This document shows, one piece after another, positions 9,070 to 54,814 of a DNA stretch of 64,000 bases. Both the position numbers and the translations under genes were made by a program. The stretch is from Streptomyces tateyamensis (GTDB lineage: Bacteria; Actinomycetota; Actinomycetes; Streptomycetales; Streptomycetaceae), in NCBI RefSeq assembly GCF_003205575.1, contig NZ_PYBW01000097.1, positions 1 to 64,000 on the forward strand. Direction: 5' to 3'. Every line of letters starts with the position of its first letter. The stretch's first letter is position 1. The notes below the pieces were generated by a model. That model was not told where the DNA came from. It searched no databases and saw nothing but the letters and a program-made list of their open reading frames with translations.

Positions 9070-10692
9070 ATGACCGCCCCGACGACCGCGGCGGGGACCG
9101 GTCCCGCGACCGGCCTGCCGCTGCGCCGGCTGCTGATGTCCCTGGGCGAGCCGCTGGTCGAGCTGCAGGCCGCGCCGGCCGGGCTGGACGTCCTGGTGAC
9201 GGACGTGGCGATCCTCGACCCCGAGGACCCGGCCACCGCGGCGCCGGGCGAACTGGTGCTGGCGATCGGCGCCCGCGGCCGGGCCGCGCTGCCCGCGCTG
9301 CGCGCCGCGGGCCGGGCCCGGGCCGCGGCGGTGGCGGTCAAGCTGGACGCCCCCGGGCAGGCCGACGCGCTGCGCGAGGCCGCCACCGAGGCCGGGGTGG
9401 CGCTGCTCTCGGTGCGCCGCGAGACCCGCTGGGAGCACCTGGACGCGCTGGCCCGCGCGGTGCTGGCCGGCCCGGACGCGCCGGAGGCGGTGGAACCCAG
9501 CCTCGGCGACCTCTTCTCGCTGGCCCAGACCACCGCGGTGCTCACCGGCGGCATCGTCTCCATCGAGGACACCTCCAGCCGGGTGCTGGCCTACTCCCGC
9601 TCCGCCGACTCCGAGGAGGTCGACGACCTGCGCCGGCTCTCCATCCTGGGCTGGCAGGGCCCCGAGCCGTACCTGTCGAAGCTGCGCGAGTGGGGCATCT
9701 TCCAGCACCTGCGCAGCTCCGACACGGTGATCGCGGTGGAGCCGCACCCGGAGCTCGGGCTGCGCCGGCGGCTGGCGATCGGGATCCGGGCCGGGGGCCA
9801 GCCGCTGGGCACGATCTGGGTGCAGGAGGGCTCGCAGCCGCTGGCCCCGCAGGCCGAGCAGGCGCTGGTCGGGGCCGCCCGGGTAGCGGCGGCCCAGCTG
9901 GTGCGCCGGCGCCGCGAGGTCTCGGCGGACGTGCGGCTGACCCAGACCCTGCTCACCGGGCTGCTGGAGCGCAGCACCGGGCCGCAGTCGCTCGCCACCC
10001 ACCTGGGCCTGGCCACCCACCGGCCGGCCGCGGTGCTGGCCTACGCGGCGCCGGGCAACGAGCTGGGCCGCCCCGAGCTGACCGGGCTGATCTCGGTGCA
10101 CTCCGCGGCCCGGCACCGCGGCGCGCTGCTGGCCCCGATCGACGGACGGGTCTACGTACTGCTGCCCGACCTGCCGCCCGCCCTGTCGGCGGCCACCGTG
10201 CGGGCCTGGGCCCAGGAGGTGGTGGACGCGGCCCGCGACCACCTGGGCGTGCCGCTGCGGGCGGCGATCGGGGCCACGGTGCCGGGGCTGGCGGCGGTGC
10301 CGGACTCACGGACCCAGGCGGACCGGATCCTGGACGCGATGGGGCGCGGCGGGGTCGCGCTGGAGGTCGCGGCGCTGCTGGACGTGCAGGCCGAGGTGCT
10401 GGTCAGCGAGGTGCTGGCGCTGCTGCAGGAGCGGGCCGAGCTGCGCGATCCACGGCTGTCGGCGCTGACCGCGTACGACGAGCGGCACGGGACCAGGCTG
10501 GCCGAGTCGGTGCTGGCCTGGCTGGACGCGCTGGGCGAGGTCCGGGTGGCCGCCGAGGCGCTGCACATCCACCCCAACACCCTGCGCTACCGGGTGCGCC
10601 GCGCCGAACAGCTCACCGGCATCGACCTGGCCCACCCCCAGCAGCGGCTGCTCACCATGCTCCAGCTCCGCCTCCCGGCCCCGGAGGCCTAG
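9070..10692 (+). CDS. PucR-family transcriptional regulator, probable proline-utilisation activator
   Basis: The 540-residue protein starts at ATG 9070. It has a PucR-type N-terminal region, a GAF-like middle (VLTGGIVSIEDTSSRVLAYS), a GGDEF-like CdaR segment (RPAAVLAYAAPGNELG...) and a C-terminal helix-turn-helix (VRVAAEALHIHPNTLRYRVRRAEQLTGIDL). Divergence from pruA and proline dehydrogenase matches the PutR regulators described for proline use in Streptomyces. The stop codon overlaps the opposite gene's stop in a shared CTAG (10689-10692). The 151-bp intergenic region holds GTTCGAAC (9045-9052), a possible binding site. Confidence 0.88.
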   Translation: MTAPTTAAGTGPATGLPLRRLLMSLGEPLVELQAAPAGLDVLVTDVAILDPEDPATAAPGELVLAIGARGRAALPALRAAGRARAAAVAVKLDAPGQADALREAATEAGVALLSVRRETRWEHLDALARAVLAGPDAPEAVEPSLGDLFSLAQTTAVLTGGIVSIEDTSSRVLAYSRSADSEEVDDLRRLSILGWQGPEPYLSKLREWGIFQHLRSSDTVIAVEPHPELGLRRRLAIGIRAGGQPLGTIWVQEGSQPLAPQAEQALVGAARVAAAQLVRRRREVSADVRLTQTLLTGLLERSTGPQSLATHLGLATHRPAAVLAYAAPGNELGRPELTGLISVHSAARHRGALLAPIDGRVYVLLPDLPPALSAATVRAWAQEVVDAARDHLGVPLRAAIGATVPGLAAVPDSRTQADRILDAMGRGGVALEVAALLDVQAEVLVSEVLALLQERAELRDPRLSALTAYDERHGTRLAESVLAWLDALGEVRVAAEALHIHPNTLRYRVRRAEQLTGIDLAHPQQRLLTMLQLRLPAPEA

Positions 10693-11873
10693 GAGCGGGT
10701 GCGGCGCCAGTGGTCCCAGGCGGCGAGCCAGTGGGCCTCGGCGGCGGGTTCGGCGTCCGGGTCGCCGAGCCGGGCGTGCAGCTCGGCAAAGGCCAACTGG
10801 GCCGGCAGGCTGGGCACCTGGCTGGCGAAGACGGTGTACCGGATCGCCTCCTCCACCGCCGCCCGCCCCTCGGTGCTGGCCAGCAGCCAGTCCGCCCGCT
10901 CCGCCAGCCGGCACAGCTGGGACACCATCAGGTGGACGGCGGCGGCCGCCTCCCCGCGGGTCTCCGAGGCGTACCGCATCTGCTGACGGATCGCCACCGC
11001 CCACTGCTCCGGCGGCTGCCCGGCCCGCAACCGCCGGGGCAGCTTGACCCGCCCGGCCGAGGTCCGGTGCGCCCGCTCCGCCAGGGTGCGCTCCACGCTG
11101 GCCTCGATCAGCAGCCGGTGCGCGTCCAGCCCGGTGAGCGCGGCCTGCCCGCGCCGGGCCCGGGCCCGGCGGCGCAGCCGGGCCAGCTCGACCTGGCGCA
11201 GCAGTTCGGTGCGCCCGGTGATGAACCGGTCGTGGTCGCGCCCGTTCAGGTGCCGCAGCTCGACGTCGGCCGGCTCGATCCCGCGCCCGCACAGCAGCAG
11301 CACCGAGCCGTTGACCAGCAGCCGTCCGGCCCAGACCGTCCGGCCGGCCGGCCCGGTGCCACGCTCCTCGTGCAGCTGGACCGGGACCGGCTCGCCGTCC
11401 ACGGTGATCCACTCGCGCAGCGTGCGCACCCGGCCGGGGCTCTCCCCCTCGTCCACGCCCAGCTGCTCGTACACCCGGTCCCGCTCGCGCTCGATCACCT
11501 CCTCCAGCTCGGGCAGCGCCAGGTGCCGTTCGATGCCCGGCTGGTAGGTGCGCACCGTGACGTAGGGGCCGTCCAGCGAGCTCCAGTCCCCGGAGCGGAC
11601 CTCGAACCAGGACAGCTCACCGCCGAGCAGCTCGTAGTCGCCCAGCGCGTCGCTGTCCACCACCGCGTCCGCCCGGCCCGGCACGCCCGGCTGCGCGGGC
11701 ACCGGGGCGACGCCCCGCGCACCCCGCCCGCAGCGGTCCACCCCGAAGACCACGAAGTCCAGGTCGGCGAAGACCTGGCGGATCAGCCGCTCCTGGTCCT
11801 CCAGCCGCCCCTCGTCCACGGCCAGGAGGTCGTCCTCGGGTTCCGCGGCCCAGCTGTCACTGCTGATCGTCAC
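10689..11873 (-). CDS. Conserved protein of unknown function
   Basis: The predicted product has 394 residues when started at GTG 11873 (VTISSDSWAAEPEDDLLAVDE). I do not recognise a domain. The N-terminal 150 residues look like an alpha/beta domain with acidic patches. A middle strand-rich part (VWAGRLLVNGSVLLLCGRGIEPADVELRHL) is followed by a basic helix (ARLRRRARARRGQAAL). The C-terminal 130 residues are helical (VHLMVSQLCRLAERADWLLAS). A candidate -10 (TATCGT, 11957-11962) would give a leader of about 75 nt. It ends against pucR with overlapping stops. Frame and codon use look genuine; the longer frame to 12140 lacks support. Confidence 0.72.
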   Translation of the reverse strand: MTISSDSWAAEPEDDLLAVDEGRLEDQERLIRQVFADLDFVVFGVDRCGRGARGVAPVPAQPGVPGRADAVVDSDALGDYELLGGELSWFEVRSGDWSSLDGPYVTVRTYQPGIERHLALPELEEVIERERDRVYEQLGVDEGESPGRVRTLREWITVDGEPVPVQLHEERGTGPAGRTVWAGRLLVNGSVLLLCGRGIEPADVELRHLNGRDHDRFITGRTELLRQVELARLRRRARARRGQAALTGLDAHRLLIEASVERTLAERAHRTSAGRVKLPRRLRAGQPPEQWAVAIRQQMRYASETRGEAAAAVHLMVSQLCRLAERADWLLASTEGRAAVEEAIRYTVFASQVPSLPAQLAFAELHARLGDPDAEPAAEAHWLAAWDHWRRTRS

Positions 11874-12051
11874 CTTCGCCGCACCCCCGGGGCTCGCCGT
11901 CGTTCGATGCGCGGCCGGGTACCGGGGCAGGCGGTGGGTCCGGGCCGCGCTCGCCCACGATACGTGCGCGGGACCTGCTGGGCCATCAGCTTCCCTCGTA
12001 CGGTTGGCAGATCGCTCCTTGCGGCCCGTCACCCGCCTGTCGGCCCTATCG

Positions 12052-12074
12052 TTGTCGGTGCGGATGCCTACGGT
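12052..12074 (+). promoter_or_regulatory. RecA-NDp / PafBC-type DNA-damage promoter of the VOC-SRPBCC pair
   Basis: TTGTCGGTG (12052-12060), an 8-bp spacer and TACGGT (12069-12074) match the published RecA-independent DNA-damage promoter TTGTCRGTG-N8-TAnnnT at every defined position. The ATG of the VOC gene follows 7 bp after the -10, so the transcript would be leaderless or nearly so. Confidence 0.72.
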
Positions 12075-12081
12075 GGGTCGC

Positions 12082-12540
12082 ATGACAGAGCAGCACGGGA
12101 CCGCCACGACCGCGGTGCCCGCCCGGATCAGCATCGTCACCCTCGGCGTGGCCGACCTGGACGTCAGCAGCGCGTTCTACGCGGCGCTGGGCTGGCAGCG
12201 TTCGACCGCCTCCAGCCCGGAGATCGTCTGGTTCCGCACCGCCGACTCCGCGCTCGGCCTCTTCCCCGCCGACGAGCTGGCGGCCGACGCCGGGCTGCCG
12301 CCCGGCGGCGAGCCGGCCTTCCGCGGGGTGACGCTGGCGGTCAACCTGGAGTCCCCGCAGGCGGTGGACGCGGCGCTGGCGGTGGCGGTCGCGGCGGGCG
12401 GCGGAATCGTCAAACCGCCCGCGGCCACCGAGTGGGGCGGCTACTCCGGCTACTTCCAGGACCCCGACGGCCACCTGTGGGAGCTGGCGCACAACCCGTT
12501 CTTCGCATTCACCGAACAGGGGCAGCTGGACCTGCCATAG
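12082..12540 (+). CDS. VOC-family (glyoxalase/bleomycin-resistance fold) protein
   Basis: This 152-residue protein starts at ATG 12082 (MTEQHGTATT). It has the paired beta-alpha-beta-beta-beta modules of the vicinal-oxygen-chelate fold: ISIVTLGVADLDVSSAFYAALGWQ at the start and GGYSGYFQDPDGHLWELAHNPFF at the end, including the conserved DPDGHLWEL metal-site motif. The substrate cannot be read from sequence; related proteins bind metals, thiol adducts or bleomycin-like drugs. A perfect DNA-damage promoter precedes it and an SRPBCC gene follows after 7 bp. An upstream ATG at 12064 is possible but would overlap the -10. Confidence 0.88.
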   Translation: MTEQHGTATTAVPARISIVTLGVADLDVSSAFYAALGWQRSTASSPEIVWFRTADSALGLFPADELAADAGLPPGGEPAFRGVTLAVNLESPQAVDAALAVAVAAGGGIVKPPAATEWGGYSGYFQDPDGHLWELAHNPFFAFTEQGQLDLP

Positions 12541-12547
12541 TGCCCGG

Positions 12548-13030
12548 GTGGAGTTCAACCACTACCGGCTGACCAGCACCTGGCGGCTGCCCGCACCGCC
12601 GGGCCCGGTCTACCGGGCGCTGCGCGACGTGCCGGCCTACCCGCACTGGTGGCCGCAGGTGCGCCAGGTGGTCCGGCTGGACGAGCGGACGGGGCGGGTG
12701 CGGATCCGCTCGGCGCTGCCCTACCAGCTGCTGGTCACCGCGCACGAGCGGCGCCAGGACCCTCCCCGAGCCTCCGCCCGGGGGTACTCCCGGGCGGGGG
12801 TGCTGGAGGCGGAGCTGGCGGGGGACCTGGTCGGCTGGTCGCGCTGGACGGTGGGCCCGGACGGGGCCGCAGGGAGCCTGGCCGTCTTCGAGGAGGACGT
12901 CCGCCCGGGCAAGGCGCTGATGCGCCGCCTCGCGCTGCCCGGGCGCCCGCTCTTCCTGATCAACCACGCGCTGATGATGCGCTCGGGCGAGCGCGGCCTG
13001 CGCGCTCGCCTCGGCAGCACCCTGCGCTAG
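12548..13030 (+). CDS. SRPBCC (polyketide cyclase/START-like) family protein
   Basis: The 160-residue protein starts at GTG 12548, 7 bp after the VOC stop. The fold is visible in MEFNHYRLTSTWRLPAPPGPVYRALRDVPAYPHWWPQV and in the C-terminal helix RRLALPGRPLFLINHALMMRSGERGLRARL. The loop RQDPPRASARGYSRAGV in the middle is coded by a hairpin repeat (12762-12791) of the type normally found between genes, so it looks like an insertion that the fold tolerated. Function unknown; SRPBCC proteins bind hydrophobic ligands. The TAG stop overlaps the opposite gene's stop in CTAG (13027-13030). Confidence 0.85.
   Translation: MEFNHYRLTSTWRLPAPPGPVYRALRDVPAYPHWWPQVRQVVRLDERTGRVRIRSALPYQLLVTAHERRQDPPRASARGYSRAGVLEAELAGDLVGWSRWTVGPDGAAGSLAVFEEDVRPGKALMRRLALPGRPLFLINHALMMRSGERGLRARLGSTLR
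12762..12791. repeat. Streptomycete-type palindromic repeat inside a coding sequence
   Basis: The element (CTCCCCGAGCCTCCGCC... ending TACTCCC) is a diverged copy of the repeat at 1311-1340, 25 of 30 positions alike. It lies in frame within the SRPBCC gene and codes for an extra loop. Confidence 0.65.
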
Positions 13031-14631
13031 CTCTTCGAGCGCGCCTTGAAGGCCGCCTTGCGGGCCTCCTTGGCCACCGCGCGGTCCACGTGCAGCTCGC
13101 CGACCGCCTCCAGCACCTGCGCGGTGTAGGGGTGGTCGACCCGCCACAGCTCGCCGAAGAAGCTGGCCGGGTTGTCGGTGACCGGCAGTTCGGCGATCAG
13201 TTCGCGCAGCACCTCGGCGTCGCCCTCGCTGTCCAGCAACTGGGCGGCGAAGGTGTCCACCGTGGTCCACAGCACCATGCCCCGTTCCGGGGCCGGCACC
13301 CCCGCCGCGCCGTGCGAGACCAGCCAGGCCCGCGCCGCGCCGCCCAGCTCCGGGTCGGCCAGCACCTCGCGCACCACCGGCTCGACCTGCGGCCCCAGCT
13401 CGCCGAGCGCCAGCTGGGCCAGCATCCGGCGCAGCGGCGCGCTCGGGTCGCTGCCGCGCGCGGCGTCCAGCAGTTCGCGGGCCGCGCCCAGCGGCTCCCG
13501 GCCGGCCAGCCAGACCCGGATCTCCTGCTCGGGCAGCACGTTGGCCGCCTCGGCGATGCCCTGCAGCAGCGCGCTCGCGCCCCCGGTGGCGTGCTCGCCG
13601 ATCAGCGGGGCCTCGAAGCCCTCGTCCAGCAGCCACTGGCGGATCCCGTACTGGCCCAGCGGGGTGAGCCGGACCATCCCGAACCTGGCCGCCTCGGCCT
13701 CGTCCAGCTCCGCGGCCGACTCGGCCTGGGCCGCCTCCTCCTCGTCGAACAGCTCGGGGTCGATCGGCTGGTACTCCAGCAGCCCGATCTCGGCCAGGTC
13801 GGCCAGCATCGGGTCCAGGGCGACCATCACGTCGGTGATGTCGCCGAGCATCTCCTCGTCCGGCTCCTCGCCGTCGGGCACCACCAGCAGCGCGGCCAGC
13901 ACGCCCAGCGGCACCGTCTCCTGGCCCGGCTCGGCGAAGGCGGTGGTCTCGTAGAGCACCTGCAGCGCCTCGTCCAGCAGCTCGGCGGCCTCCTCCTGGA
14001 CCTCCTCGAACTGGGCCAGCAGCTCCTCGGCCCGCGCCTCGTCGGCCTGCTCGCCGGCGTCCGGCTCGGCGTCCAGCGGCTCGATCTCGGCGGCCAGCTC
14101 GGCGATCACGTCAGCCGCGGCGAGCCACAGCTCCAGCACCGCCTCCGGCTCGCCGGCCTCGACCGGCGCCAACTCCTCGCTGGGGCCGCCGGCCCGCTGC
14201 CCGGCGGCGTCGTGCGCCAGCACCACCAGCTCCAGGTCGCAGGCGAGCGACCAGGCCCGCATCGCCTCCAGCACCGCCTCCTCGGACACCTCGCCGGTGG
14301 CCGGGGCCAGCTCCAGCAGGCGGGCGGCGGCCTCCCGGTCGGCGTCCAGCAGGTCGCCCAGCTCGTCCACCGGACGGGTCGGGGCGCTCCACCGGGCCAG
14401 CCGCACCGCGCGCTGCAGCAGCGGGACGGCGAGCGCGGCCGCGGCCAGCTCCGCCTCCGGCAGCAGCCGCACCGGCGGGACCAGCACCGCCAGGTCGTCC
14501 AGGTCTTCCTCCGCGTCACTGCCGTGCGCCCCGTAGAGGTCGGCCAGTTCGAAGTCTGCGGGCAGCAGGCTCTCCGACTCCGGCTCGCCCGCCGACGGGC
14601 GGTCAGTGTTCTTGCGGCGTCGTCCGGCCAT
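13027..14631 (-). CDS. Large acidic conserved protein of unknown function
   Basis: The 534-residue product starts at ATG 14631 (MAGRRRKNTDRPSAGEPESES) behind TAGGAG. After a basic N-terminal tail it is strongly acidic, with long Glu/Asp/Ala-rich helices around residues 170-320 (EPLDAEPDAGEQADEARAEE, EEVQEEAAELLDEALQVLYE). The segment MVRLTPLGQYGIRQWLLDEGF resembles a winged-helix wing. A HEAT-like stretch (LRRMLAQLALGELGPQVEPVVREVLADPELG) follows, and the tail is Lys-rich (AVAKEARKAAFKARSKS). No catalytic motif is seen. Similar proteins are widespread in Streptomyces as hypothetical proteins. The stop overlaps that of the SRPBCC gene. Confidence 0.78.
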   Translation of the reverse strand: MAGRRRKNTDRPSAGEPESESLLPADFELADLYGAHGSDAEEDLDDLAVLVPPVRLLPEAELAAAALAVPLLQRAVRLARWSAPTRPVDELGDLLDADREAAARLLELAPATGEVSEEAVLEAMRAWSLACDLELVVLAHDAAGQRAGGPSEELAPVEAGEPEAVLELWLAAADVIAELAAEIEPLDAEPDAGEQADEARAEELLAQFEEVQEEAAELLDEALQVLYETTAFAEPGQETVPLGVLAALLVVPDGEEPDEEMLGDITDVMVALDPMLADLAEIGLLEYQPIDPELFDEEEAAQAESAAELDEAEAARFGMVRLTPLGQYGIRQWLLDEGFEAPLIGEHATGGASALLQGIAEAANVLPEQEIRVWLAGREPLGAARELLDAARGSDPSAPLRRMLAQLALGELGPQVEPVVREVLADPELGGAARAWLVSHGAAGVPAPERGMVLWTTVDTFAAQLLDSEGDAEVLRELIAELPVTDNPASFFGELWRVDHPYTAQVLEAVGELHVDRAVAKEARKAAFKARSKS

Positions 14632-52691: not shown

Positions 52692-54785
<2,094 letters not shown>

Positions 54786-54791
54786 GGATCC

Positions 54792-54814
54792 ACCGTACGA
54801 CCCATCGCCGACAT
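54792..54814 (-). promoter_or_regulatory. RecA-NDp / PafBC-type promoter of uvrB
   Basis: On the minus strand ATGTCGGCG (54814-54806), 8 bp and TACGGT (54797-54792) match TTGTCRGTG-N8-TAnnnT in 7 of 9 positions of the upstream element, with exact spacing. The predicted start site is the G of the uvrB GTG. Confidence 0.6.

Follow-up and report, generated by a model that had tools for sequence, protein, structure and literature searches.

Does a small gene of the VOC superfamily, which opens 7 bp downstream of what looks like a promoter of the RecA-independent DNA-damage response, belong to that response, and what might its product do there? We followed this question from the locus itself, within a window of 64 kb (the whole stretch of DNA that was analysed), to the orthologues and homologues of the gene, the distribution of the motif in the family and the predicted structure of the protein.

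A RecA-NDp motif directly upstream of the VOC start codon

The gene (12082..12540, + strand; stop codon 12538-12540) encodes a VOC-superfamily protein of 152 aa (PF00903 Glyoxalase, 8.3e-14). Upstream of its ATG at 12082, positions 12052-12074 (+) read TTGTCGGTG-CGGATGCC-TACGGT, a RecA-NDp motif with 0 mismatches, as the preliminary description of this DNA had claimed. The −26 element TTGTCGGTG of this RecA-NDp (PafBC-type) promoter (12052..12060, +), assigned by exact match, orthologue conservation and matrix score, is followed 8 bp 3′ by the −10 element TACGGT (12069..12074, +), and 7 bp separate the end of the hexamer at 12074 from the ATG. The coordinates and spacing given earlier, including a 7-bp gap between VOC and the next gene, which encodes an SRPBCC protein, were likewise correct. 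The site agrees at all defined positions with the consensus tTGTCRgtg-8 nt-TannnT, as printed in the part of the source available to us (PMC5656591). Because the −10 element ends 7 bp from the ATG, an mRNA initiated here would have its 5′ end on the start codon or next to it; we infer a transcription start at or near 12082 and a VOC mRNA that is probably leaderless.

The hexamer 17 bp 5′ of the VOC −10 element, CTATCG, is unlike a −35 element. A scan for σ70-type promoters over 11850-12120 returned 0 sites, which is a weak test of −35 absence as about 0.0 were expected. With up to 2 mismatches allowed, the motif has 5 matches in the 64-kb window against 1.15 expected, and at least 5 were obtained in 0 of 100 shuffles. 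The LexA box has the consensus GAAC-N4-GTTC; no box of this type with at most 1 mismatch was found near VOC (11 in the whole window, 13 expected), and LexA control of VOC was rejected on this absence. Searches of the window found no structured RNA or tRNA, and PADLOC defence families gave no match.

Distribution of the motif in the genome, genus and family

The genome itself (7.46 Mb, 439 contigs) contains four exact copies of the motif, against zero matches to the reversed pattern, and each copy stands 6-8 bp 5′ of a start codon: 7 bp before the ATG of VOC, 8 bp before the ATG of recA (named by reading its product; the orthologue L173 matches PF00154 RecA, 2.1e-143), 6 bp before the GTG of a HAD-type hydrolase gene, and 7 bp before the ATG of a gene whose DinB_2 product contains a short pentapeptide stretch. 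This DinB_2-family gene also has a mycothiol-transferase family match below the cut-off of that family. The looser pattern TTGTCRG-N10-TANNNT matches nine times in the genome and once in the control.

Across 61 genomes of the genus we counted 724 exact sites (2-32 per genome, median 12) against 4 reversed-control matches. The four sites of the present genome place it near the low end of these congeners. At the level of the family, the exact motif occurs in 101/101 genomes of 17 genera (reversed control, 0-2 per genome; S. venezuelae is not among them). The position of start codons was read from 68 distinct exact sites with flanks (4 from this genome, 1 each from 30 genus genomes and 36 from two genomes, less duplicates). 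An ATG or GTG opening an ORF of at least 100 aa stands at 6-8 bp in 31 of the 68, while six other 3-bp windows give 1-5. The counts against the control and the start-codon spacing together indicate that the motif behaves as a promoter class in the family, often a leaderless one.

The genes behind exact sites were sampled in two congeners (in G029 all 16 exact sites, in G004 20 out of 21), and 24 of the 36 downstream ORFs were scanned with Pfam. The genes recognised include polA, recA, uvrB, sbcD, rarA/mgsA, an AlkZ-like glycosylase and a family-A exonuclease/polymerase; others code for TnpB, a macrodomain protein, a VOC protein of PF06983 and an HU-like DNA-binding protein, the ORF of the last starting 104 bp from its site. 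The macrodomain protein matches PDB 5e3b (7.2e-80), which we take to be SCO6735. A RecA-NDp promoter and UV induction are reported for SCO6735 in the accessible text of its description (PMC5087735). No family was found by any search for 9 of the 24 scanned ORFs (L165, L177, L180, L183, L185, L188, L189, L191, L199). The 12 unscanned ORFs comprise six named by reading against scanned copies (L182, L184, L186, L187, L193, L200) and six left unnamed (L167, L172, L192, L194, L195, L196). The regulon list is incomplete, and some of the sites may be chance occurrences or non-coding.

Several of these loci are worth recording in their own right. In four copies in G004 (L181, L182, L187, L200; one Pfam-scanned), TnpB genes of IS605-type elements open with a GTG 6 bp behind an exact RecA-NDp site. 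The form of the site with the spacer CCTGTCGG occurs nine times in 5/61 genus genomes (L053 and L266-L273 among the loci); five of the nine are directly TnpB-like, a sixth is the L181 site and three read in another frame. A transposon under a damage-type promoter would be of interest in its own right. The PF06983 VOC-type gene of G029 (L178) has its exact site 41 bp before the ATG. A VOC paralogue in species without the orthologue (L081 of G009, L082 of G028) is preceded by TTGTCGGTG (a single mismatch over the whole site) or CTGTCGGCG (3 mismatches), with the −10 sequence CAGGAT.

The uvrB promoter as a yardstick

The window also contains uvrB (52692..54785, − strand; 697 aa), about 43 kb from the VOC gene, which is chromosomal. 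The ORF was named by reading, and its congeneric orthologue L175 matches PF17757 UvrB_inter (7.4e-34). A degenerate RecA-NDp promoter, ATGTCGGCG-N8-TACGGT (54792..54814, −), lies 6 bp before the uvrB start codon and served as our yardstick. uvrB was found in 41/41 genomes, 30 of which were taken as loci, and the element precedes the start codon in all 30 (14 exact, 11 with 1 mismatch and 5 with 2, the ATGTCGGCG site of this genome among the last). These sites are better kept than those of VOC (14/30 exact versus 3/29); drift at positions 8-9, common at VOC, affects 2/25 genus loci and 5/5 other-family loci at uvrB. A matrix built from the uvrB sites of the 29 relatives, with the genome's own site left out, gave the VOC site the top score of the window (28.4), followed by the local uvrB site (19.1). 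The VOC site scored highest of its 3.4-kb locus in 28/30 loci; the misses were L033, whose spacer is 1 bp longer and which has no matrix score, and L034.

Conservation of the site among VOC orthologues

VOC orthologues are present in 28/36 congeners besides the genome itself and lacking in 8/36. We read 30 loci, 29 of the same genus (this one included) and one, G040, of another family. Every one of the 29 same-genus orthologues keeps the site, with 0 mismatches in 3 (this locus included), 1 in 5, 2 in 18 and 3 in 3; over all 30 loci the numbers are 3, 5, 19 and 3. The preliminary description had named as a refuting outcome that near relatives retain the genes but lose the motif; this was not seen. 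In all 29 the site is 6-7 bp 5′ of the start codon, which is itself conserved (in L007 the conserved ATG is 7 bp on and another start codon stands at 0 bp).

At the −26 element (n = 29), T2, G3, T4 and G7 are found in every sequence, C5 and R6 in 28, T8 in 14 and G9 in 6, and at the −10 element the first T is found in 28, A in 28 and the final T in 29. The 5′ flank of the −26 element is near random (n = 29), and some spacer bases are conserved in the genus. The column counts point to constraint on the −26 core and drift at its 3′ end; as the mismatches fall mostly at positions 8-9, the sites of many relatives may be weak. TGTCGG stands at the same place in three other-family orthologues, with a weaker −10 element in two of the three: L077 and L078 both have CTGTCGGC 6 bp from the start, with TAGTCT and GATAGT, respectively, as −10 sequences, and G040 has ATGTCGGTG with AAGAGT. 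A second TGTCAG was observed 15-16 bp 5′ of the −26 TGTCAG in the VOC orthologues L010, L016-L019, L021, L023 and L024.

Homologues without the site

The 33 genomes of another genus of the same family (g15), presumably Streptomyces, encode a VOC homologue of 45-52% identity (matches accepted only at E 1e-30 or better). A site with at most 2 mismatches within 250 bp upstream was found in 0/33; in many, a −10-like box directly precedes the start while a −26 element is absent. In a tree with few columns and many weak forks, these homologues branch as a clade of their own, separate from the orthologues of the genus and of the other family, and they were rejected as orthologues.

Among 80 named loci taken to cover more distant homologues, six have a site with at most 3 mismatches within 150 bp upstream, four of them of the genus. 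A Nocardioides locus of unsure place in the tree (L096; 2 mismatches, 8 bp before the ATG) is the sole exception among the distant actinobacterial homologues read, and a Terriglobales site (L118; 2 mismatches) was taken as chance. The best sites of the actinobacterial loci L092, L110, L121, L137, L149, L150, L152 and L160 have 4-5 mismatches, as do those of L079 and L080. L079, L080 and L137, from other actinobacterial families, group near the other-family orthologues yet lack the site, which is not conserved beyond the order. The absence of the site from the g15 and distant homologues makes the promoter a feature of the lineage and not of the VOC family.

The proposed regulator and alternative readings of the promoter

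Two overlapping WYL/WCX genes lie at G000:C408 of the genome, which has seven WYL-domain matches. The second encodes a PF19187 HTH_PafC protein (1.2e-31); the first, behind two genes reading as FKBP-like, is assigned as PafB by position only. In mycobacteria, according to the available portions of two reports, PafBC has been placed on the motif in vivo (PMC6789036) and, once single-stranded DNA has activated it, makes contact with the −26 motif through PafB and with domain 4 of SigA through PafC (PMC11804915). If the same mechanism operates at VOC, single-stranded DNA would activate PafBC, which would dock between the −26 element and the housekeeping sigma factor (PMC11804915), and RNA polymerase would start at or beside the ATG to give a leaderless mRNA. 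In the sequence itself, conserved −26 and −10 elements with no recognisable −35 stand 6-7 bp from the VOC start, as at recA and uvrB.

The arrangement closely resembles the RecA-NDp/PafBC regulon as known from mycobacteria (and, for RecA-NDp, from Streptomyces recA and SCO6735) in its −26 TTGTCRGTG, 8-bp spacer and TANNNT; the element is shared by recA and uvrB of this genome, in which pafC has a WYL neighbour. It differs in that most VOC relatives deviate at positions 8-9, and a distance of 6-8 bp from the start is common here. The earlier proposal of a RecA-NDp/PafBC-type promoter is upheld at the level of sequence by its retention in 29/29 orthologues, by recA and uvrB promoters of the same kind and by the presence of pafC and the adjoining WYL gene. 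On these grounds we regard the VOC gene as probably belonging to the RecA/LexA-independent (RecA-NDp) DNA-damage regulon, with well-supported predicted control of a leaderless mRNA by RecA-NDp/PafBC. The gene would add a new candidate to an established regulon: in the literature as far as its text was available, we found no published link between such a VOC gene and the RecA-NDp/PafBC regulon.

Two other readings of the same bases have to be weighed. VOC could have an ordinary leaderless housekeeping promoter in which the −10 element alone matters and TGTCRG is kept by common descent; the g15 homologues, often with a −10-like box and no −26 element, suggest that such a gene can be transcribed in this way, and within the genus conservation extends to some bases of the spacer. 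However, TGTC-G is far more conserved than its 5′ flank and persists in three other-family orthologues, no −35 replaces the −26 element, and the element equals that of recA and uvrB, so that we consider this highly improbable. Alternatively, the site may be real but serve a different activator (ClgR, for instance, or a further WYL protein) or more than one. ClgR is reported to recognise the motif in mycobacteria in the available text of one study (PMC5656591), and the seven WYL-domain matches offer further candidates, but the placement of PafBC on the motif in vivo (PMC6789036), the contact of PafB with the −26 element (PMC11804915) and the pafC gene with its WYL neighbour make this unlikely.

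One WYL system bears some likeness to the present case. SiwR of Mycobacterium smegmatis, as described in the accessible text, is a WYL activator of genotoxic stress encoded beside DinB-superfamily genes, and in some Actinobacteria its locus adjoins a PF18029 glyoxalase-like gene (PMC10693628); the VOC protein here has a weak PF18029 match (6.8e-5). The SiwR locus differs in its regulator and its palindromic site, and its glyoxalase-like gene is not the VOC gene analysed here (PMC10693628).

The SRPBCC neighbour

The gene behind VOC (12548..13030, +) starts with GTG after the 7-bp gap and encodes an SRPBCC (Polyketide_cyc) protein of 160 aa (PF03364, 1.3e-6). The preliminary description treated VOC and SRPBCC as a unit, and a two-gene damage module would agree with the 7-bp gap here and with the short gaps in the 6/29 same-genus orthologues that have an SRPBCC gene within 1.5 kb behind VOC. 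In the other 23/29, all of which keep the motif, no SRPBCC match was found within 1.5 kb. The motif stays with VOC, and we rejected the pair as the main reading; a two-gene module seems quite improbable. In the tree the six SRPBCC-bearing loci occupy early branches and one inner group, a 21-row clade has none, and this distribution fits an old VOC-SRPBCC pair that was later lost. We conclude that SRPBCC is clade-limited and mostly a passenger behind VOC, probably co-transcribed with it where present and dispensable for the arrangement.

The SRPBCC protein had no significant match among solved structures, and NCBIfam gave no name to it or to the VOC protein. At about 12757-12801 its gene has an in-frame insertion of ~27 bp (~9 codons) with a G+C-rich palindrome, which is wholly absent from 4/5 other SRPBCC genes; L032 has a shorter insertion of its own. 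At 13027-13030 the stop codon of SRPBCC overlaps that of a convergent gene, 13027-14631 (−). For the protein of this gene and that of 10692-11873 (−), Pfam and NCBIfam gave no family at a threshold of 0.001.

Fold and candidate function of the VOC protein

An AlphaFold model of the protein has the VOC fold (mean pLDDT 85). By Z-score the leading structural match is the mitomycin-binding protein MRD of Streptomyces lavendulae (1kmz, Z 15.2, rmsd 2.8 over 123 residues), followed by 3rhe (14.4) and others at 11.4 or less, including methylmalonyl-CoA epimerases and a Mn-bound glyoxalase among the further structural matches; ranked by Foldseek E-value, 3bqx is first and 1kmz third. VOC chains are often domain-swapped, which biases structural rankings towards chains without the swap, and the place of 1kmz at the top may partly reflect chain topology. 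A profile search gives independent support for the resemblance to MRD: MRD entries are the first of named function (1.8e-5 to 2.5e-5), with FosA3 next (9.3e-5). The nearest solved sequences overall have names that tell no function, foremost 3bqx, a glyoxalase-related enzyme of Fulvimarina pelagi (1.7e-19). MRD (PDB 1kmz, 1kll, 2a4w) shares the VOC fold at 23% identity, while the VOC gene here is chromosomal and has a damage-type promoter.

We take the usual VOC metal-ligand positions to fall around I18, G59, G82 and E134. In our alignment the first three are non-polar and E134 is kept, a pattern that would fit loss of the metal site. The invariant W118, Y121, Y124 and W133 are candidates only for an aromatic clamp. 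Aromatic stacking is the means by which MRD and EhpR bind flat drugs, the latter probably leaving its ligand unchanged, according to the available text (PMC3175449).

As the nearest named solved protein is MRD, sequestration of a genotoxin is plausible, and the earlier suggestion of protection from a genotoxic metabolite is a reasonable guess that the nearest named relatives fit. Our preferred, tentative reading, drawn by analogy, is that the protein may be a metal-free MRD-like binder, one that sequesters a small genotoxic molecule or a metabolite arising from damage while repair enzymes act. About as likely, and in our view a real contender, is an enzyme that resembles glyoxalases, epimerases or thiol transferases and serves in the repair of metabolites or reactive aldehydes: FosA3 follows close behind MRD in the profile search, epimerases and the Mn-bound glyoxalase are among the structural matches, and the DinB_2-family gene with its sub-threshold mycothiol-transferase match has the same promoter in the same genome. 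Three non-polar residues at the four presumed ligand positions speak against it, though E134 is kept.

Possible meaning for a damage response in the family

In the available text of a study of LexA in S. venezuelae, the M. smegmatis motif seemed from a first search not to be conserved there, and a PafBC-type damage response in Streptomyces is stated as open (PMC9380542); a review, as far as its text was available, extends RecA-NDp to other Actinobacteria (PMC8223512). The exact motif in 101/101 family genomes bears on the question of such a response in Streptomyces, with S. venezuelae outside the sample. The VOC gene would offer a single-gene leaderless reporter for the PafBC-type response. 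It may further be that in Kitasatospora and a sister family the PafBC response combines DNA repair with a detoxifying arm, in which a conserved, leaderless, damage-induced VOC protein sequesters self-made or foreign genotoxins as a general chromosomal function, perhaps with the DinB_2-family protein of the same promoter; we put this forward as a doubtful possibility. The VOC gene is also a candidate link between the sensing of damage and the neutralising of its chemical cause.
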